Below, one piece after another: positions 5,571 through 54,957 of a DNA stretch of 64,000 nt (positions within the stretch are counted from its first letter, which is position 1; each line of letters opens with the position of its first letter). The stretch covers positions 1 through 64,000 of the forward strand of contig JAPHTP010000057.1 in assembly GCA_026196875.1 (NCBI GenBank). Direction: 5' to 3'. The DNA comes from Kangiellaceae bacterium (GTDB taxonomy: Bacteria > Pseudomonadota > Gammaproteobacteria > Enterobacterales > Kangiellaceae). The notes beneath the pieces were generated by a model. The model was not told the DNA's origin. It saw nothing but the letters and a program-made list of their open reading frames with translations, and made no database searches. The position numbers were made by a program, and so were the translations under genes.

Positions 5571-6701
5571 ATGTCCAATGAGCAATGCGTATTAGTCGTA
5601 GATGACACTGCTGATAATAGAACCTTACTGAAAATGCTGTTGGAGGACAAATATCAGGTTGTTGAGGCCAGTTCAGGCGCGGAGTGTCTGGAGAAAATAG
5701 AAACTAACACGCCCGATCTAGTTCTACTTGACGTAAACATGCCTGGAATGACAGGTTACGAGGTGTGCATTGAGATCCGTAAAAATAACCAAACCGAGGC
5801 GCTACCGGTAATCTTTGTGTCAGCTCTTGATAGTACCGAAGAGCGCCTGGCCGGTTTTGAGGCGGGGGCTGACGATTACATTACTAAACCCGTTGATGGC
5901 CAAGAGTTATTGCAAAAAGTTGAGTTTAGGCTTGCCCGAAGCCTCGAAATTGAAGAGGCTAAACAAGAAGCAAGTTCGGCAATGAATGTTGCAATGGAAG
6001 CGATGACTTCAAGCAGTGAGTTAGGAGAAATAATTCAGTTTGTCAAAAACGTTCAATCGATTGATTCTTTGGAAGGGGTGGGGCAGTCAATTATAGATAT
6101 AGCAAAGAACTTTGGCTTGAACTCTTGTGCGCTAATAACAGGGAGTTCGCCAATTTTTGTTGGCTGTACCGAGGAAAGCATCGAAGCTAAAGTTCTTGAT
6201 AAGTTCCAGCAGAGTCCTGAGCGGGTAACTAACTTGGGAATTCGAACAATCATACGCAGTGATAACCTTGTGCTATTGGTCAAGAATATGCCGCTCGATG
6301 AGGAAAGCCGTTATGGAAGACTTAAGGATCACTTAGTCGTTCTGGAAGATATTGCCTATGGTCGTCTTACTACTTTGCATGCACAGAATGCAATTGGTGA
6401 ACAGCGAAAAGACATTATCAATAAGCTAATCGAGCTTGCTGAAAATCAAATAAAATTGACCAGTGAGAAAATCCATGGACATAGCAAAACGATTACTAAT
6501 ACCATGAGCGATATGCTAAATGAACTGGAAAATATGTTATTTGGACTGGGGCTGGACGATGATCAAGAAAAGAAATTGATGCAATTAGCTGATCGGACAT
6601 CAATTAAACTGAATGAAAGTAGCGAAAGCACTAGTCAACTGGATAATGATTTGGGGGTTATTTTGGAAGCCCTCTATACATTGCTAGAAAAGGAAAATTA
6701 G
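5571..6701 (+). CDS. Response regulator with receiver domain and uncharacterised GAF-like/coiled-coil C-terminus
   Basis: 376 residues with a good Shine-Dalgarno (AGGTAGGA) before the ATG. Residues 5-122 are a canonical receiver: DD at 11-12, Asp54 in LLDVNMPG, and Lys106 in YITKP. No DNA-binding, GGDEF, EAL or HD-GYP output is visible. Residues about 125-165 are Ala/Glu/Met-rich helix (EEAKQEASSAMNVAMEAMT). About 170-270 has mixed alpha/beta character that could be a diverged GAF fold. About 275-376 is highly helical, probably coiled coil, with GLGLDDDQEKKL. It follows the hybrid kinase at 1385-5482 in the same direction and ends 27 bp from the convergent diguanylate cyclase gene. I infer that it receives phosphate from that kinase's Hpt. 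The output is unknown; a protein-interaction role is plausible. Confidence 0.85.
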   Translation: MSNEQCVLVVDDTADNRTLLKMLLEDKYQVVEASSGAECLEKIETNTPDLVLLDVNMPGMTGYEVCIEIRKNNQTEALPVIFVSALDSTEERLAGFEAGADDYITKPVDGQELLQKVEFRLARSLEIEEAKQEASSAMNVAMEAMTSSSELGEIIQFVKNVQSIDSLEGVGQSIIDIAKNFGLNSCALITGSSPIFVGCTEESIEAKVLDKFQQSPERVTNLGIRTIIRSDNLVLLVKNMPLDEESRYGRLKDHLVVLEDIAYGRLTTLHAQNAIGEQRKDIINKLIELAENQIKLTSEKIHGHSKTITNTMSDMLNELENMLFGLGLDDDQEKKLMQLADRTSIKLNESSESTSQLDNDLGVILEALYTLLEKEN

Positions 6702-6728: not shown

Positions 6729-7610
6729 CTAACCCAAAACGACCTTATTTCTGCCGGTTTGTTTAGCTTCATATAAGGCGTCATCGGCGCGCTTGATTAA
6801 ATTGTCCAGTTCTTCTCCTGGTTTAAGTTGGGCAACGCCAAAGCTTGCAGTGACTTTTAGCGACTCGGGTTTTAGCTCCTCAACTTTTTTTCGGATGCTC
6901 TCTACTTTAGATTTAGCTGATTTTAGATCGCAATGATCTAACATCAGTACAAATTCTTCTCCACCAAAACGTGCAGCAATATCTTCCTTCCTGGTTGTAT
7001 GATTAAATAATTTGGCAACTTCTATTAGCACTTTATCTCCAATATCGTGGCCATTATTGTCGTTAATCGATTTAAAGTGATCGATGTCGACAACGACCAA
7101 AGAAATAGGATAATCATGCCTAAATGACTTAGCAATCTTTAAGTCTGCGGTTTCCATCAAATAGTGGCGGTTATAGATTCCTGTCAATTGATCATAAAGA
7201 GCCATTCGTTTTAATTGATCTTGCTGTTTCTTTATCGTTATTTGAGTTTTTACGCGCGCTATTACTATGGCAGGGCGGACAGGCTTCGTTATGTAATCAA
7301 CAGCTCCTAACTCCAGTCCAAACTCTTCATCATCGTCGTCATCTTTTGCGGTAATAAATATTATTGGAATTGATGCTGTTGATGTTTGGCTTTTTAATTT
7401 TTGACAGACTTCATAGCCATTCATTTCGGGCATTTCAATGTCTAATAAGATCAAATCTGGTTGAGGTATCGAGCCTGCAAGTTCAATACACCGCTTGCCG
7501 CTAGTTGCAACTTTTATTTCGTACATATCGCTGAGAAAACCTGCTAACAACTGGATGTTGGCTGGAACATCGTCAACTAAGAGTATCGCTGGTTTTTCAG
7601 ATGAGCTCAT
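6729..7610 (-). CDS. Response regulator diguanylate cyclase (REC-GGDEF)
   Basis: 293 residues. The receiver has DD at 13-14, Asp57 in LLDIEMP and Lys109 in YITKP. The GGDEF domain carries the active-site signature GGEEF (216-220), preceded exactly five residues upstream by RKED (207-210), so the RxxD inhibitory site for cyclic-di-GMP is intact. It should make cyclic-di-GMP from two GTP when the receiver is phosphorylated and be feedback inhibited. It lies 20 bp downstream of the very large hybrid kinase (7631-14167) on the same strand, so the two are almost certainly one operon. I infer that this protein is the terminal output of that kinase's phosphorelay. Confidence 0.93.
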   Translation of the reverse strand: MSSSEKPAILLVDDVPANIQLLAGFLSDMYEIKVATSGKRCIELAGSIPQPDLILLDIEMPEMNGYEVCQKLKSQTSTASIPIIFITAKDDDDDEEFGLELGAVDYITKPVRPAIVIARVKTQITIKKQQDQLKRMALYDQLTGIYNRHYLMETADLKIAKSFRHDYPISLVVVDIDHFKSINDNNGHDIGDKVLIEVAKLFNHTTRKEDIAARFGGEEFVLMLDHCDLKSAKSKVESIRKKVEELKPESLKVTASFGVAQLKPGEELDNLIKRADDALYEAKQTGRNKVVLG

Positions 7611-10600: not shown

Positions 10601-13600
10601 TTTATTTTGATTGATTTCTTCTACGTCAACTAAGAATTTTTCTGGATATTTGAGTTGAAACAGAACCTCGTTGAGGATTACTTTTTCATCTTTTAGTTGG
10701 ATCAATTCTTCCGGAATATGCCATAACTCAGCGAATCGGCTGTTGGTACGAAGAACTTTCCCACTGTTACTAGTGACCAAAATTCCGTTGTCGGTAGATT
10801 CTAGAGTCGCTTCAAGGAGCGTCATAGCTTCTTTGGTATTAATCTCTGCTTGTTTGGTTTCAGTAATATCTAAGTGAGTGCCTATCATTCTTTTAGGCGA
10901 ACCATCTTGATTCCATTCAACAACTTTTCCAGTATCGAGAACCCAAACCCAATGACCACTTTTGTGTTTCATTCTAGATTGACAAATGTAGCGCTCAGCC
11001 TCTCCTTTCCAGTGCTTTTCTAATTGTTTTTCCGATTCTTTCAAATCTTCCGGATGAGAAAACTTGAGCCATGTATCAATGTTGACAGGCTCAAGTTCTT
11101 TTAAACTATACCCAATGATTTCTGCCCACCGCTGGTTGAATAGTGTCTCCCCAGTATTAATATTCCAATCCCAGGTTCCGACGGCAGTGCTATCAATAAC
11201 TAATTCTAATCGCTTAGAGCTTTCACTTAGTGCGCTTTCAGCTTCTTTTTGCTTTGTGATGTCTCGCGCGATGCCTAAAAATCCAGTGATTTCACCCGAA
11301 TTATCTTTAAGAGCGGTGACAGAAAGTAGTACTGGAAATTTGCTACCGTCTTTTCTCACATATGCCCATTCTCTTTCGTCGGTTTTTCCTTGCTTGGCTT
11401 TGGCGACAAATACTTCAAAACCAGGTTCGATAGTTTTTTTAGAATCTTTTGATAGTTCTTTGGCGTATTCGACTACTTCATCAAGATCATGAATTACTGC
11501 GGGTGTTTGTTTACCAACCATTTCATCCGCGTCATACCCAAGCATTCCCTCGGCAGCTTTGTTGAATGTTTGAATAAGGCCTTCTCTATCAGTGGAAATA
11601 ATGCTCATTGCCGCCGCATCTAGAATGGCATTTACTACAGAGATAGACTCTATAAGTTGTTTTTCAGCTATTTTTTTGGTTGTGATATCTGTTCTAAGTG
11701 CAATATAGCTCTGCGGCTTTCCGTTTTCGTCTTTAAATGGAACTATCGTCGTATCTACCCAATAGTATTTTCCAGACTTAGAGATATTTTTAACTTCGCC
11801 TTTCCAAACCTTACCATTTGCAATCTTGTGATACATTTCTTTCCAAAAGGAAATAGGGTGGTGGCCTGAATTGACTATTCTATGATTTGTTCCTATGAGT
11901 TCGTCTACCGAATATTCACTGATTTCCGCGAACTTTTCATTTGCATAAGTAATCGTTCCTTTGGTATCCGTTACCGCAACAATAGAATGTTGGTCGAGTG
12001 CAAATTTTTGCTCTGTTAATTCATTATCCCGAGATTGTTTTAGGAGCATCATATTATGAAAGCTTCTAGCAAGTACTCCAACTTCATCTTTCGCATTGAT
12101 AGGAAGTTCTAGTAGTTGGTTATGCTTTTCATAGTAAGATATGGAGTTTATTGTTTTCTGTAGTGGAGAAGTGATTTTTCTCGATGCCAGCATAGCAACA
12201 GCTAATGCGATAACGGCCAAGCCAAGCCCTATAACTAAACTCTGATTTCGATAGTTGGATAGCTCACTGCTAATCACTTTAAAGTCATACAAAAGCAGGA
12301 GTTTTAACGGGTGCTCTATGTTAAACGATGCAAGTTCGATAGTCTTAAGAAAACCAAATATATTGGAGCTTTCCTCGGTGTTAACTAATCGAACAGAGTC
12401 TACTTTTTGTTTTATCGGTGCAGATAGCACAGGAAAGTCAGATTGGATCAGATGCCGAGTTCCTAAACTAAAGCCAAAAACTTTTGATTCCTCAGGATGG
12501 TAAAGGTAGTCTCCTTCCTCATTGGTTAAATAGAATTGAACATGTTTTAGTTTTGCGGATTTTAAGTTATCAACAAGAGAGTGAAAGTCTGTACTAATTA
12601 TTACTATGCCAAATAGTTCCGAGTTATCTGCGTCGTAGACCGGCGTTGCTATTCTCAACACTGGAACATGGGGGATAGCTATTTTTCCATCTTCCTTTGC
12701 TAGTTCAATTTTGGAAAAGTAAACGTCTCCCAACTGATTTGAGCGAGCTTTTTGAAAATACCCTCTTGCACATTTTTGTTGTAGCCGAGATTTAGGTGTT
12801 TTGTAAATTCCGCTGCGATTCTTCACAACGTTAACTATTTCTCTTCCGTTATCATCGACGCCTATCAATCTTATTTTTACGTATTGAGAACGAGTCTCTA
12901 AAATTCCGCTAAAAATCGTTTCTAATCGTTCACTCCATATCATTTTCTGTGCTTCATCATTCGACTGATATGCTAATGAAAGCCCCTTAATAGGCGGTGT
13001 TTTACTTAAAAACAGTACATCGTTGTACGATTGCCTGTAAAAAGCCGTAATTAAGGGTTCGACTAAAGTGGATTCAATTTCTAACTCATCTATTTTTCTT
13101 TCAGCGACTAATTTCTCGGTATCAATATAAAAACTAACTGCGACGACCCCGGAAATAATGAGCGAAATAATAAATGCCGCGGCAGGTATGGTAAATGACT
13201 GGGGGTACTTAGCATAACCAACTTCAAGTAATCCTTTTACTTTCTGTCTATTTTTTTCTTGTTCTGCGTGTCTCATTGCCATTTGGTAATCAGTCGATTG
13301 ACTAGATGTAGCAATGTCATAAGTTATACCGACGAAAATGCAACCATAAGCGACAATTTTTAGAGCATGCGCAATATTAAAGTGATTGTCGAATAATTGG
13401 CTAGAGCCAAAGCTCATGTGCATCTGGGTAAAAACTTCAGGGATTATGCTGAGCAAAAGTGCAAATTTAACTATCGAGCTTTTTCGTTGGTTCCAAATCC
13501 ATACCAAAATGCCTGCAAATAAAAACATTGCTAAAGGTAAAACGTCGTAAGGGCGAGTTATTGTGGCTTGAGGATAAGTTGTATGCGGAAGGTTTTCGCT

Positions 13601-50502: not shown

Positions 50503-50925
50503 TTACTTGTCTCGTGTAACCAAAGTTAAAATAGGGAATTTGCTGTTGCCAAACGGCACAGTGATTGATCGTATTTCCTTGCGCTCAAATATTTCATCTT
50601 CCATTCGTGGAAAAACTCTTTTGCCGTCGGCAAACAAAGCGAGCAAGTGGTCTGATTCTAAAATTCTACGACCGCCGGCTTTATTTTGAAATGTTATGGT
50701 AGCCCAACGTTCACCCTGTTCATTGCTCATAGTTAACGCATGAATGATTTCAAATTGACTTTTTTCAGGATAGACTTTGTCGTCATTGCGAAACTGAATA
50801 ATCTGAGAATTTACTATGGTTTGATCGACCATTAAGTTCTCTGAAAGTTGGTCGTTTGCTGACGCCGAACTTGTTTGGATTACACTCAGTACAAATGTGA
50901 TTATAAATACGTGTTTTAACAGCAT
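50503..50925 (-). CDS. Small exported protein of unknown function downstream of the two-component pair
   Basis: 140 residues. AGAGGA precedes the ATG. A signal peptide (MLLKHVFIITFVLSVIQTSSASA) predicts periplasmic location. The mature protein is beta-rich (IIHALTMSNEQGERWATITFQNKAGGRRILESDHLLALFADGKRVFP). No cysteines or known motifs are seen. It lies 122 bp downstream of the histidine kinase on the same strand, behind a region with three heptamer repeats, so it is a candidate target of that two-component system. Confidence 0.7.
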   Translation of the reverse strand: MLLKHVFIITFVLSVIQTSSASANDQLSENLMVDQTIVNSQIIQFRNDDKVYPEKSQFEIIHALTMSNEQGERWATITFQNKAGGRRILESDHLLALFADGKRVFPRMEDEIFERKEIRSITVPFGNSKFPILTLVTRDK

Positions 50926-51047: not shown

Positions 51048-52400
51048 TTAAGAACTGAAATCAATGACTGTTCGAAACATTCCATCCAACTTTTCGGTAA
51101 AAAACTTCCATTGCATTCGCTCGCAAATAGTTTCTACCACAAAAAGGCCTACACCATAACCATATTCTGTAAAGTTTGGTTCCGTAAAGTTTGATTCTGT
51201 AAAGCCCGGCTCCTTATCTGCTAGTGTATACGAGTTGTCATTGGATAAAGGGTTAATTATTGTAAATTGGCCATTCTCGAAGCGTACTTCAATCTCACCT
51301 TCGCTTGAATATTGGAACGCGTTTTTTAACACATTATCAATGACTATTTGAGCAAATTCATTGGGAACCATAAGTGGTTCTTGCGCGATTTCGAATTTTG
51401 TCGTTATTGATTTGTCACCAATTAGATGTTGGTATTTTTTTATACTTTTAGAGAGTAAATCATTAAGGTCGACCTCGCAAGCTTCAAATAGTTTGGAGGA
51501 GCCTGACCATATATGTAATAGTGATTCGCTTGTATCACACATATTTTGATTGGCTGTCTGTATTTTGATGAGTTTATTTTTTACATTACCTGGTAGATCC
51601 TTAGCCTTTTTTTCAATGAGTTCAAGACTCGCTTTTATAATTGCCAGCGGCGTTCTTAGCTCATGGCTTAAGCTCTTTAGAAAGTTTTTTTCTCTTTCAG
51701 TCTTTTGCCTGATTGAATCAAGTGCAACTTGAAATTTAGCGGCAACTTCTTGGATTTCTGTGAAGCGAGCTTTAGGGATATGCTCCGGCGAGTTTTGGGG
51801 CCTGTTAATTTCCAGTTTGCGAACCCAATCAGCAAGTAACTTAATTTGAGTAGTTAGTTTTTTTGCTATACGAAGGTAGAATAAAAAGCCAAATATAAAG
51901 GTAAAAAGACCTAGTAATCCGGTTAGTTGTGGGATGGATATTCCGGGGTCGTATTCATCTTCTGAATATAGGTAGGTATGTTCAACAAATGAAAGCTCAT
52001 TGTTTCCTAGTTCGACTCTTTCATTTTGGAATGGCAAAATATAGCTAAAGTTTTCTTCAGTTTCGTGGACCAGCATTACCCCAGCTTGAATATTTTCTTT
52101 AGGATAGTCAGCTTTAAACTCAGAAGGGAGATCGTGATAGCTTAGGTAAATATTAAAGCTTTCTTCATCTATGTTGCCCATAGATTGATTATTTCCAGCG
52201 TTGTAGTTCTCTGCATGTAAAGAAAGAAAGTAGTGGAAAGAATCGTCGTTTCCCCAAGTATAAGTAATATGAACAGAATAGGAATAAAAAGCGAGTATTA
52301 AGACAAGCAGAAGCGAAAAGTTAATAAATACGTATTGAGAAACAGAAGAGCCAGATTGCCCAGATTCATTTTTATTAGTGGATGAAATAGCGTAGTTCAT
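51048..52400 (-). CDS. Sensor histidine kinase of an OmpR-type two-component system
   Basis: 450 residues from ATG 52400, 13 bp after the regulator stop; a TTG at 52421 that overlaps the regulator gene is the alternative. It has two TM helices (about 26-46 and 165-185) around a periplasmic domain of about 120 residues rich in acidic residues. A juxtamembrane linker and HisKA with SLSHELRTPLAII (His246) follow. The ATPase domain keeps the N-box (NVLKNAFQYS) and G2 (GYGVGLFVVE) but has INPL where DxGxG is usual. The ATP lid contains a threefold FTE-type repeat encoded by 15-bp tandem repeats. It pairs with the regulator at 52414-53073. The stimulus is unknown. Confidence 0.88.
   Translation of the reverse strand: MNYAISSTNKNESGQSGSSVSQYVFINFSLLLVLILAFYSYSVHITYTWGNDDSFHYFLSLHAENYNAGNNQSMGNIDEESFNIYLSYHDLPSEFKADYPKENIQAGVMLVHETEENFSYILPFQNERVELGNNELSFVEHTYLYSEDEYDPGISIPQLTGLLGLFTFIFGFLFYLRIAKKLTTQIKLLADWVRKLEINRPQNSPEHIPKARFTEIQEVAAKFQVALDSIRQKTEREKNFLKSLSHELRTPLAIIKASLELIEKKAKDLPGNVKNKLIKIQTANQNMCDTSESLLHIWSGSSKLFEACEVDLNDLLSKSIKKYQHLIGDKSITTKFEIAQEPLMVPNEFAQIVIDNVLKNAFQYSSEGEIEVRFENGQFTIINPLSNDNSYTLADKEPGFTESNFTEPNFTEYGYGVGLFVVETICERMQWKFFTEKLDGMFRTVIDFSS
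51166..51210. repeat. Three tandem 15-bp repeats inside the kinase ATP-lid coding region
   Basis: Units 51166-51180, 51181-51195 and 51196-51210 share the TCTGTAAAG core with few changes. In the protein they encode repeated PGFTE, SNFTE and PNFTE-like units next to the G2 box. The multiple of three keeps the frame. Confidence 0.75.
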
Positions 52401-52413
52401 TTTTATTTCCGAC

Positions 52414-53073
52414 TTAACCAATTGAAATTCCCTGGCCGCGAACTGTGTTCAACAAGGACTGCTCAAATTCTGAATCTATTGACTTTCTTAATCGATAGAT
52501 CAGCATTTTGTAGGCGTCTTTGGATGGTGGTTCATCGTGCCAAATTAAGTTCTCGATTTTTGCTTTTGAAATTACTTGAGGAGAGTTACGCATTAGGTAT
52601 TCAAGCAACTTCCACTCGGTAGCGCTTAGTGATAGTGTTCTATTTTGCCGAGAAACAATTTTAGTTTGAGTATTGAGGCTGAGATCTCGCACAGTTAATA
52701 GAAACTGCTTTCCTGATTGTCTAGATTCGAGTGCTCTTATACGGGCTACCAGCTCGGCTAGCTCAAACGGTTTAACTAGATAGTCATCGGCACCGACAGA
52801 AAAGCCTTCAAGCTTGTCTTGAAGTTGATCTTTAGCGGTCAGCATGATCAAGGGAGTAGAAATTCCCTTTTCTCTAAGCGTTTTAACAAGTGAAAAACCA
52901 TCTAGAATTGGCATCATCACATCACTGACGATGATATCATAATGATTCTGCTCAATAAGATTGAGCGCCATCTGACCATGAAAAGCCATATCACATTGAA
53001 TCGACTCCGATTCCAAATATTCGAATACAAGTTCTGCCAAGTCAGGGTCATCTTCAACAAGAAGTACAAGCAT
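52414..53073 (-). CDS. OmpR/PhoB-type response regulator
   Basis: 219 residues. The receiver has EDD at 7-9, Asp51 in IIVSDVMMP and Lys in DYLVKPF. The C-terminal winged helix shows LSLSATEWKLLEYLMRNSPQVISKAKIENLIW, then AYKMLIYRLRKSID and TVRGQGISIG, the usual RGxGY position being RGQGI. It is encoded just upstream of its kinase and divergent from an amidohydrolase lipoprotein gene. The 192-bp divergent region carries two pairs of an 11-bp-spaced heptamer in opposite orientation. I infer that these are its binding sites and that it controls itself and the amidohydrolase. Confidence 0.93.
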   Translation of the reverse strand: MLVLLVEDDPDLAELVFEYLESESIQCDMAFHGQMALNLIEQNHYDIIVSDVMMPILDGFSLVKTLREKGISTPLIMLTAKDQLQDKLEGFSVGADDYLVKPFELAELVARIRALESRQSGKQFLLTVRDLSLNTQTKIVSRQNRTLSLSATEWKLLEYLMRNSPQVISKAKIENLIWHDEPPSKDAYKMLIYRLRKSIDSEFEQSLLNTVRGQGISIG

Positions 53074-53130
53074 TTAAGTTATTCCGTCATTTATTTAGAC
53101 CAATTATAGGTCTAAATTCTATGCTAGGAC

Positions 53131-53148
53131 AGGTAACAAGTAGGTAAC
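53131..53148 (-). promoter_or_regulatory. Direct-repeat operator facing the response regulator gene
   Basis: AGGTAAC at 53131-53137 and 53142-53148, exactly 11 bp apart. Read on the minus strand they are GTTACCT-N4-GTTACCT, and a TAGCAT -10-like hexamer follows four bases after. The geometry suits activation of the two-component operon by its own regulator. Confidence 0.65.
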
Positions 53149-53200
53149 GGCAACTTATTTGGTTTGTTTAACATTATGATTTTAAATAATATTATTTCTG

Positions 53201-53218
53201 GTTACCTGTTTGTTACCT
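53201..53218 (+). promoter_or_regulatory. Direct-repeat operator facing the amidohydrolase gene
   Basis: GTTACCT at 53201-53207 and 53212-53218, exactly 11 bp apart and mirror-symmetric to the pair at 53131-53148. A TAATCT-like -10 lies about 10 bp downstream, with no good -35, as expected for an activator site that replaces it. Confidence 0.65.
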
Positions 53219-53265
53219 TGCACTGGTTAATCTTGTACTCACTACAGCAAGATTAGGAGAAAGAG

Positions 53266-54957
53266 ATGAATTACCTAGTATCAATTTTAATACTATTCAC
53301 CATGATTGGATGTTCTTCCAACACTAGAGAGCCGGAATCCGACAATAATGTTGTATCGCAGACTGTTGCAGATAGGGTGATTACTAATGCAAAAGTTTAT
53401 CTGGGAAAAGACAATTACGCGGCGGCGATCGCTATCAAAGATGGCAAGATTTTGTTCCTCGGAACTGAGCAAGCAGCTCAAGCTTACATTGCGACGGTTA
53501 CAAACGTTATAGACGCAGGCGGCCAATTGGTTTTACCCGGGTTTATCGATAATCACAACCATCTGGGAGAGGGTGGTGAAGTCACCTGCACACCTAGCGC
53601 CGAGTATACCCTGAGCCAACAGGCTCAGTTACTATCGCAATGTGCGCAAAATGTTGAACCGGGCAAATGGATTATTGGTTACGGCAGTGATTATTTGTCG
53701 GAAATGGACGAACAACAAACAACGCCAATTTCAGTGTTAGACGATCTTTTTCCGCAAAATCCTGTGATAATTATGGACTTCACTTCACACGCTCAGTTTG
53801 TTAATTCACTGGCACTGGAAATTGCCGAAATTGATAAATCATCACCAAATCCTATTGGTGGCATTTACATGAAGGATAGTCAGGGGGAGCTAAATGGGAT
53901 CTTACTAGACAATGCAGGTGACCTGGTCATGGAGATGGCGGTTAATAGTATAGAAGGCAAGTTCGATATTTTTGTCGAAGGAATTTTATTTGGTCTAAAA
54001 GAGGCGCGTGAAAACGGAATTACTTCCGTTGGAGACGGGCGAACCTACTGGCGAAGAGGGATGTACGAAGCCTGGAAGCAAGTTGAAAATGATGATTTAT
54101 TGACTGCACGAATTTCCCTTCGGCCCTGGATTTATCCAGACGTTGACAAGCAAGAACAGCTTAATTTTCTGCAGCAGGCATTTCAGAATGACATCAACCA
54201 ACTACTGATAGTCAATCAGGTCAAAATGTATAGTGACGGAGTGCCTGCATACGGAACAGGAAGAGTAATTGAACCTTATGAGTTTACTTGGACTCCCGAG
54301 TTACCAAACGGATTAAATTACATTAGTCAGGTTGCAATGAGTGATTGGTTAACGACTCTTTACGGCATCGGTTATGGAGCGCATATTCATGCCATCGGTG
54401 ACTTAGGCGTTAGGGAATCATTAAATGCAATTGAGCAAGTTCGAAATGGTGGTTCTGTCTTAAAGTACAATATGACCCATTTAGAAATGGTAGATCCGCA
54501 AGATTTGGAAAGATTTCGCGAGCTTAATGTCGACGCCGATTTGCAGTTATCTTTCGCAGCACATAGTCACGCCGAAAGAGCGGAGCATATTGCGCCATTT
54601 ATTGGTACTCAAAGAGCCAATGAAGTTTTATTGACACCGGTAAAAGAACTACAGGAGTCAGGCGCAAATGTTGTGCTGAGTAGCGATTGGACAGTTAATT
54701 CGATTTCGCCGTTAAGTGCTATTTCAATTGCGGTAGAAGAAGGCTCTCTGACAATCGGTGAGGCAATTAATGCTTATACGATTAATCCTGCTAAAGCACT
54801 GGGATTAGAGTCGATTACGGGTTCTATCGAAGTTGGTAAATCTGCAGACATAGTCATACTAGGTACCGACATCACTGAAGCAACACCAGCCAAGGTCAAA
54901 CAAGCGGCCATCAAACTAACAATGTTGCAAGGCGAAATAGTATTTTCGGCTAACTAA
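53266..54957 (+). CDS. Amidohydrolase-family lipoprotein (YtcJ-like)
   Basis: 563 residues with AGGAGA upstream. A lipoprotein signal (YLVSILILFTMIGC) places Cys16 for lipidation. The metal-dependent amidohydrolase fold is seen from GGQLVLPGFIDNHNHLGEGGE (HNH metal ligands), via YGAHIHAIGDLGV and MTHLEMVDPQDLERF, to VVLSSDWTVNSISPL. The end of the composite domain is KALGLESITGSIEVGKSADIVIL. This is the amidohydrolase-3/YtcJ group, which is usually cytosolic; an envelope lipoprotein form is known. The substrate is unknown. It is divergent from the OmpR-type regulator, with a matching operator in its promoter, so it is the best candidate target of that system. Confidence 0.87.
   Translation: MNYLVSILILFTMIGCSSNTREPESDNNVVSQTVADRVITNAKVYLGKDNYAAAIAIKDGKILFLGTEQAAQAYIATVTNVIDAGGQLVLPGFIDNHNHLGEGGEVTCTPSAEYTLSQQAQLLSQCAQNVEPGKWIIGYGSDYLSEMDEQQTTPISVLDDLFPQNPVIIMDFTSHAQFVNSLALEIAEIDKSSPNPIGGIYMKDSQGELNGILLDNAGDLVMEMAVNSIEGKFDIFVEGILFGLKEARENGITSVGDGRTYWRRGMYEAWKQVENDDLLTARISLRPWIYPDVDKQEQLNFLQQAFQNDINQLLIVNQVKMYSDGVPAYGTGRVIEPYEFTWTPELPNGLNYISQVAMSDWLTTLYGIGYGAHIHAIGDLGVRESLNAIEQVRNGGSVLKYNMTHLEMVDPQDLERFRELNVDADLQLSFAAHSHAERAEHIAPFIGTQRANEVLLTPVKELQESGANVVLSSDWTVNSISPLSAISIAVEEGSLTIGEAINAYTINPAKALGLESITGSIEVGKSADIVILGTDITEATPAKVKQAAIKLTMLQGEIVFSAN

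Follow-up and report, generated by a model that had tools for sequence, protein, structure and literature searches.

Predicted GTTACCT operators facing a little-studied OmpR/PhoB-type two-component operon and an exported amidohydrolase gene in a Kangiellaceae bacterium

The 192-bp spacer between a response regulator gene and a divergent amidohydrolase gene of a Kangiellaceae bacterium (assembly GCA_026196875.1, contig JAPHTP010000057.1; the window analyzed here is the whole stretch of positions 1–64,000) contains the direct repeat GTTACCT-N4-GTTACCT twice, on opposite strands, and raises the question of which protein reads these repeats and to what effect. An earlier note on this DNA had reported the two pairs, which are exact in sequence, place, strand and 11-bp phase. 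They lie 52 bp apart, each reading toward its own gene, and the features of the region are as follows:

50503–50925, minus strand: protein of 140 aa with no family match, located 122 bases past the kinase gene.
51048–52421, minus strand: histidine kinase, 457 aa (HisKA, 3.2e-08; HATPase_c, 1.6e-06), with an 8-base overlap with the regulator gene.
52414–53073, minus strand: response regulator of the OmpR/PhoB type, 219 aa (Response_reg, PF00072, 7.3e-29; Trans_reg_C, PF00486, 1e-15), with Arg194.
53116–53121, minus strand: −10-like hexamer TAGAAT of the putative regulator promoter, 9 bp past operator 1 and 42 bases before the ATG.
53131–53148, minus strand: predicted operator 1, GTTACCT-N4-GTTACCT (exact match GTTACCTACTTGTTACCT; PWM score 31.3), facing the regulator-kinase operon.
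53201–53218, plus strand: predicted operator 2, GTTACCT-N4-GTTACCT (exact match GTTACCTGTTTGTTACCT; PWM score 38.9), facing the amidohydrolase.
53228–53233, plus strand: −10-like hexamer TAATCT of the putative amidohydrolase promoter, 9 bp past operator 2 and 32 bases before the ATG.
53266–54957, plus strand: Amidohydro_3 protein, 563 aa (PF07969, 8.2e-81), the predicted target.

The regulator consists of a receiver followed by a winged-helix Trans_reg_C domain, both with Pfam scores above the cut-off, which places it in the OmpR/PhoB type. It does not reach the cut-off of any named NCBIfam subfamily among the best 25 of its 96 matches, nor does the kinase, which has a periplasmic sensor region of ca. 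110 residues, among the best 25 of its 44 matches. The 140-aa protein is a possible third member of the regulator-kinase operon. The amidohydrolase scores 273.3 bits with Amidohydro_3 (Pfam gathering cut-off, 29.7) and has a lipoprotein-like start, with a lipobox-like MIGC at residue 16; a simple pattern detects a lipobox-like motif in 13 of the 17 amidohydrolases compared. The Pfam domains and this start agree with the previous description of one pair facing a regulator-kinase operon and the other an amidohydrolase lipoprotein.

A repeat of this type could be a chance or unselected palindrome-like feature of an AT-rich spacer, and single 7-mer repeats in 11-bp phase are not rare: in first-order shuffles of the 192-bp spacer, done to test the post-hoc choice of the word, some 7-mer was repeated at 11 bp in 461 out of 20,000. 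However, the same word in 11-bp phase on both strands appeared in 0/20,000 of these shuffles, and the pattern is conserved in other genera, a result that already refutes chance, which we regard as an extremely improbable origin. With up to two mismatches, the heptamer pair had three matches in the window vs. a shuffle mean of 0.29, and 0/100 shuffles reached three. The complete genome (6,276,235 bases in 188 contigs) contained 37 matches at this stringency, of which two were exact, two had one mismatch and 33 had two; since the reversed pattern gave 65 matches in the same genome, the inexact ones are considered background. The genome-wide scan for GTTACCT at 11-bp spacing, which had been proposed as a check, therefore yielded just the two exact pairs in 6.28 Mb, operators 1 and 2. 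These two were also the only matches to a pattern comprising the operator and the −10 (21 fixed bases, up to three mismatches; 0 in the control). The idea of a searchable regulon motif stands insofar as the motif finds sites in other genera, but not as to a wide regulon in this genome, where only two sites are found with the −10 required and up to three mismatches. The two one-mismatch pairs, C90:18412–18429 (inside a long reading frame of L089) and C134:5922–5939, were discarded as regulon members, because neither matches at up to three mismatches when the −10 is required. The C134 pair (L088, G000) lies between reading frames and adjoins the palindromic GGTAACTATTAGTTACCT, both within 5922–5968.

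Both operators precede a −10-like hexamer without a good −35, as also noted earlier: TAGAAT and TAATCT are accompanied by at most 2/6 matches to TTGACA at a spacing of 16–18 bp. A scan with the operator alone produced 26 sites in 21 loci (three with the reversed control), some of which had first been retrieved by a pattern or matrix that included the −10, and in 22 of these 26 a TAnnnT starts exactly 9 bp past the last GTTACCT column, every other offset having at most four. Among the heptamer-only rows, which are free of this circularity, TAnnnT occurs at offset 9 in 8 out of 11; the three rows lacking it are a stray site (L087:1148) and, within the fourfold array of L082, the two inner copies. 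The architecture of two 7-bp direct repeats with a 4-bp gap is exact at both window sites, and its columns are conserved over 22 sites. At 16–18 bp, 20 of 22 sites showed no more than 2/6 matches to TTGACA, one site showed three and another one four, and three or more matches appeared in 46% of the shuffled sites. The sites hence have a fixed short distance to the −10 and no −35 of their own, as in pho-box-like class II promoters; therefore, the operator occupies the place of the −35.

The regulator might also bind there and repress. Directly upstream of operator 2 there is a sigma70-like sequence that the earlier note did not mention (TTAACA-16-TATTAT, 53168–53195, plus strand), with 10/12 matches, a score reached in 15 of 500 shuffles, and operator 2 would cover the start region of this promoter, blocking it. 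However, such a promoter accompanies only one of the 20 operators tested, the other 19 scoring 6–8 of 12, like the shuffles (the strings of the minus-strand L204, L224, and L225 were shifted two bases in this test, with no material effect), and promoter-like sites are not overrepresented in the region as a whole (11 vs. 14.6 expected). Moreover, the constant 9-bp distance to a −10 and the absence of a −35 are what an activator requires, and we deem repression quite unlikely.

Conservation of the putative operators was examined in four ways: through the neighbors of related regulators, with a DNA-only scan, with a 35-column matrix, and in a scan of 63 genomes. The earlier note had pointed to orthologous operons as the place where the motif could be missing, and it is present before such operons in other genera. 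In a genome of the same genus (G005), whose regulator was found by protein similarity, related pairs precede the regulator and an amidohydrolase gene behind the kinase, and in Pleionea (G011) a pair precedes a run of amidohydrolase, PAD_porph, regulator, and kinase genes. Aliikangiella coralliicola (G002) has four copies in 11-bp phase before the regulator and, on another scaffold, one pair before an operon containing a Na+/H+-antiporter-family gene and an amidohydrolase gene. Sites in this species are found before the regulator on one scaffold and before amidohydrolase operons on two others; therefore, the link between site and regulator holds in trans.

The DNA-only scan, which searched the GTDB collection of species genomes for GTTACCT-N3-TGTTACCT-N9-TAnnnT, retrieved 23 matches. 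Seven of them directly precede an amidohydrolase gene of the same family as the window protein, or the first gene of its operon: two in Aliikangiella coralliicola and one each in Pleionea sp. CnH1-48, Hahella ganghwensis, Vibrio sp. Of7-15, Algicola sagamiensis and an Alteromonadaceae MAG; the other 16 have no such gene alongside, and some may be due to chance and some to another regulator. The matrix was built from 14 sites, six of which came from the −10-containing pattern (L092, L202, L222, L239, L240, and one of L085). Applied to 48 regions (679,696 bases), it found 20 sites scoring ≥22, comprising 12 training sites and eight new ones (L203–L207, L223–L225) that were thus first found with a partly −10-derived matrix, and none between 16 and 22, while the reversed matrix gave none at ≥16 and two at ≥14. 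An amidohydrolase gene adjoins the regulator-kinase pair in 11 loci, including the window and three that derive from the motif scan (L202, L222, L239), and is preceded by a site in 11/11; the same is true for 7/7 of those picked on regulator similarity alone and with the amidohydrolase adjacent (L081, L083, L203–L207). In the Vibrionaceae loci L223–L225, the site lies before an operon with a PAD-like gene, the regulator, and the kinase (Pfam confirmed for L223).

The set of 63 genomes comprised nine chosen on the regulator, four known from the DNA-only scan and 50 further genomes. Allowing one mismatch, 19 of these genomes had 22 matches in all, of which 16 were at modules of this kind and six elsewhere, with five in the reversed control. 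A module site was present in 9/9 of the genomes chosen on the regulator alone, and all exact matches (9/9, four of them known beforehand) were at modules. Six of the 50 further genomes had a match, and in three of these (G443, G448, G659) it belongs to this module, whose regulator there, at 39% identity, had escaped the protein search with its cut at 1e-60. A set of 17 genomes searched at up to three mismatches contained 15 matches, of which 11 were module sites, two lay at the paralogue locus of G056 and two elsewhere, and the control had 10; no operator match was seen at this stringency in eight of the 17, all with a best regulator match of ≤47% identity. A regulator match with E ≤ 1e-50 occurred in 41 out of 369 genomes sampled from the class, all with ≤48% identity apart from the window, a figure that refers to regulator matches alone and not to sites. 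The regulator loci considered were from 20 of 22 matched genomes (all but G592 and G701) and from 18 of 25 places (all but G907:C3, G869, G925, G734, G893, G928, and G959); L086 was outside the site scan and L087–L089 were scanned with heptamers alone. At the cut used, and for the loci examined, the Algicola family has a regulator of the operator-linked clade in at least 8 out of 295 genomes and the Vibrio family in at least 4 out of 247 and, judging from these sequences, the distribution of the module is patchy. Two amidohydrolases among the closest, both with 48% identity (G002 C5:486483 and G056 C3:171091), have no site.

The mirror arrangement of the window, with one site per transcript, is not the rule. 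Sites of the regulator's own were found only in the three genomes of the genus Aliikangiella that carry the system (the window, L081, L082), and in six other divergent loci (L203–L207, L239) there is an amidohydrolase-facing site, and no regulator-facing one scores ≥14 with the PWM. Since these loci manage without the latter, operator 2 might be the only functional one in the window, with operator 1 being a decoy or weak duplicate and the regulator being expressed constitutively or from a TATAAT present in its leader. Against this, operator 1 has the exact word and the same −10 offset, and the regulator genes of L081 and L082 are preceded by its counterparts; we consider such an arrangement unlikely. 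The TATAAT lies on the minus strand inside a near-perfect palindrome with 12-bp arms (53093–53117), ATTTAGACCAAT-A-ATAGGTCTAAAT, which might be a second control site or supply an alternative −10.

An ensuing question is whether the adjacent regulator, and not another one from the cell, reads the sites. A paralogous regulator, L085, has similar sites and some DNA-only matches are in unrelated lineages without the module; therefore, other proteins can read the word. In a tree of 45 regulators, however, the operator-linked ones formed a group of 17 rows, split from the other 28 with a support of 100/100, and only L085 among these 28 has sites (two). Within the clade, L214 and L215 lack a site at their own locus and have one before an amidohydrolase gene on another contig. 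Position 194 of the recognition helix, in the aligned column, is Arg in 20/20 operator-linked regulators (the 17 clade rows plus L251, L252, and L262) and in 0/28 of the others, while position 191 is His in 25/28 of the others and in 0/20 operator-linked regulators. The site, the amidohydrolase, and the clade of the adjacent regulator travel together across genera, Arg194 tracks the sites and, in this genome, sites are found only beside the adjacent regulator, all of which makes a different reader very unlikely.

The operators of L085, a Vibrionaceae-type paralogue with 42% identity, are at 7240–7274 and 10836–10870, and one of them precedes an operon that includes a member of the fatty-acid hydroxylase family (similar to OlsE, but under its cut-off). 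Matches to the DNA pattern in L093, L108 (Desulfobulbaceae by title), L096, and L105 are from MAGs without the module; L093 and L108 are near similar reading frames, as are L096 and L105, and perhaps another regulator uses the same word in these cases.

The operator and its −10 spacing thus recur in other genera, tied to one regulator clade and to Arg194. The proposal of the earlier note, that these are paired operators through which the local regulator activates both divergent transcripts, is the one best supported by the comparison, with binding as a prediction. We consider it likely, from the comparative evidence, that the heptamer pairs are operators of the adjacent regulator, which would activate its own operon and the exported amidohydrolase gene. 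The sites are a real, conserved pair, very probably operators of a little-studied OmpR/PhoB-family system with predicted control over both; the architecture is ordinary for the family, and what is newly recognized, from sequence comparison, is the predicted link among regulator, operator, and amidohydrolase. We found no account of the regulator, the operator, or the link to the target in the literature searched, which mostly excludes subscription papers, so that prior work is possible; likewise, the papers retrieved there with GTTACCT and response regulator were unrelated, as judged by their titles.

The word of the pho box is CTGTCAT; the window differs from it in its word, GTTACCT, and in its target, an exported amidohydrolase. 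The PhoB/pho box system of Enterobacteria and Pseudomonas is nonetheless similar in having two 7-bp direct repeats in 11-bp phase and a regulator of the OmpR/PhoB type, although the window regulator only reaches 161.9 bits with the PhoB model TIGR02154 (equivalog cut-off, 296.2). According to one study, PhoB binds as a dimer to two 7-bp direct repeats that in E. coli are near the −10, replacing the −35 (PMC4971064), and from the equivalent place of the operator here, activation by contact with the polymerase is a natural inference. By analogy, the kinase would sense something outside the cytoplasmic membrane and phosphorylate the regulator, which, presumably in this phosphorylated form, would bind head-to-tail, with one monomer per GTTACCT and on one face of the helix, given the 11-bp phase. 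The bound dimer, at the −35 place, would hold the RNA polymerase on the −10 located 9 bp downstream, in a class II, pho-box-like manner. Operator 1 would then drive the regulator-kinase operon, resulting in positive autoregulation, and operator 2 would drive the exported amidohydrolase gene. The best NCBIfam match of the regulator, over its full length, is with the heavy-metal regulators CusR/CopR (TIGR01387), but its 183 bits are below the subfamily cut-off of 279.2, there are no metal genes beside it and, unlike for CusR/CopR, the repeats here are direct. In the same way, the kinase has its best matches with the sensor kinases PorY and ArsS (105.1 and 78.7 bits), yet far under their cut-offs (350 and 250).

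As to the signal, the sensor regions of related kinases are 16–33% identical to that of the window. The model of this region (pLDDT 79.1) had no Foldseek match at E ≤ 0.001 and its best VIA match, with Z 9.3 and an rmsd of 3.5 for 117 residues, was the choline receptor PctD (Z 5–8 for the field), a no more than weak resemblance to PAS/Cache domains; comparisons of the kinase with solved structures gave matches to the catalytic core only. Imidazolonepropionase, the best solved structure for the amidohydrolase (4.1e-15), was discarded as a guide to its substrate, and none is assigned, because the match is limited to residues 452–532. Proteins of the PAD_porph/agmatine deiminase family, absent from the window locus, are encoded behind the operator in operons of Pleionea (L083, 8000–9124) and Vibrionaceae (L223, 910–1995), with 270.2 and 153.2 bits that are under the agmatine-deiminase equivalog cut-off of 381.8. 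Their presence in these operons suggests a shared extracytoplasmic function related to nitrogen, and it is a fair guess that the kinase is a sensor of nitrogen compounds. More tentatively, and with our doubts outweighing our confidence, this could be a small and portable module of marine Gammaproteobacteria that uses one to three hard-wired sites in each genome to turn on exported C–N hydrolases (the Amidohydro_3 lipoprotein, joined in some lineages by an agmatine-deiminase-family protein or a Na+/H+-antiporter-family transporter) when its kinase reports extracellular nitrogen of the amide or guanidino type. If true, this would be an undescribed route for scavenging extracellular nitrogen, with its own sensor. 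An anonymous two-component system now has a defined candidate operator, a defined geometry of its putative promoters, and a few candidate targets, with enough conservation to allow tests in a number of culturable marine bacteria. The substrate of a large amidohydrolase family also becomes more approachable, because the inducer of the kinase would be the first candidate for substrate or product of the enzyme.

In Shewanella, a gene with the annotation agmatine deiminase is reportedly needed for best growth on gelatin (PMC3219624). Additionally, a succinylarginine dihydrolase gene (AstB; L240, 9125–10465) is found on the opposite strand beyond the operator-linked amidohydrolase gene of G428, a proximity that is probably a coincidence.
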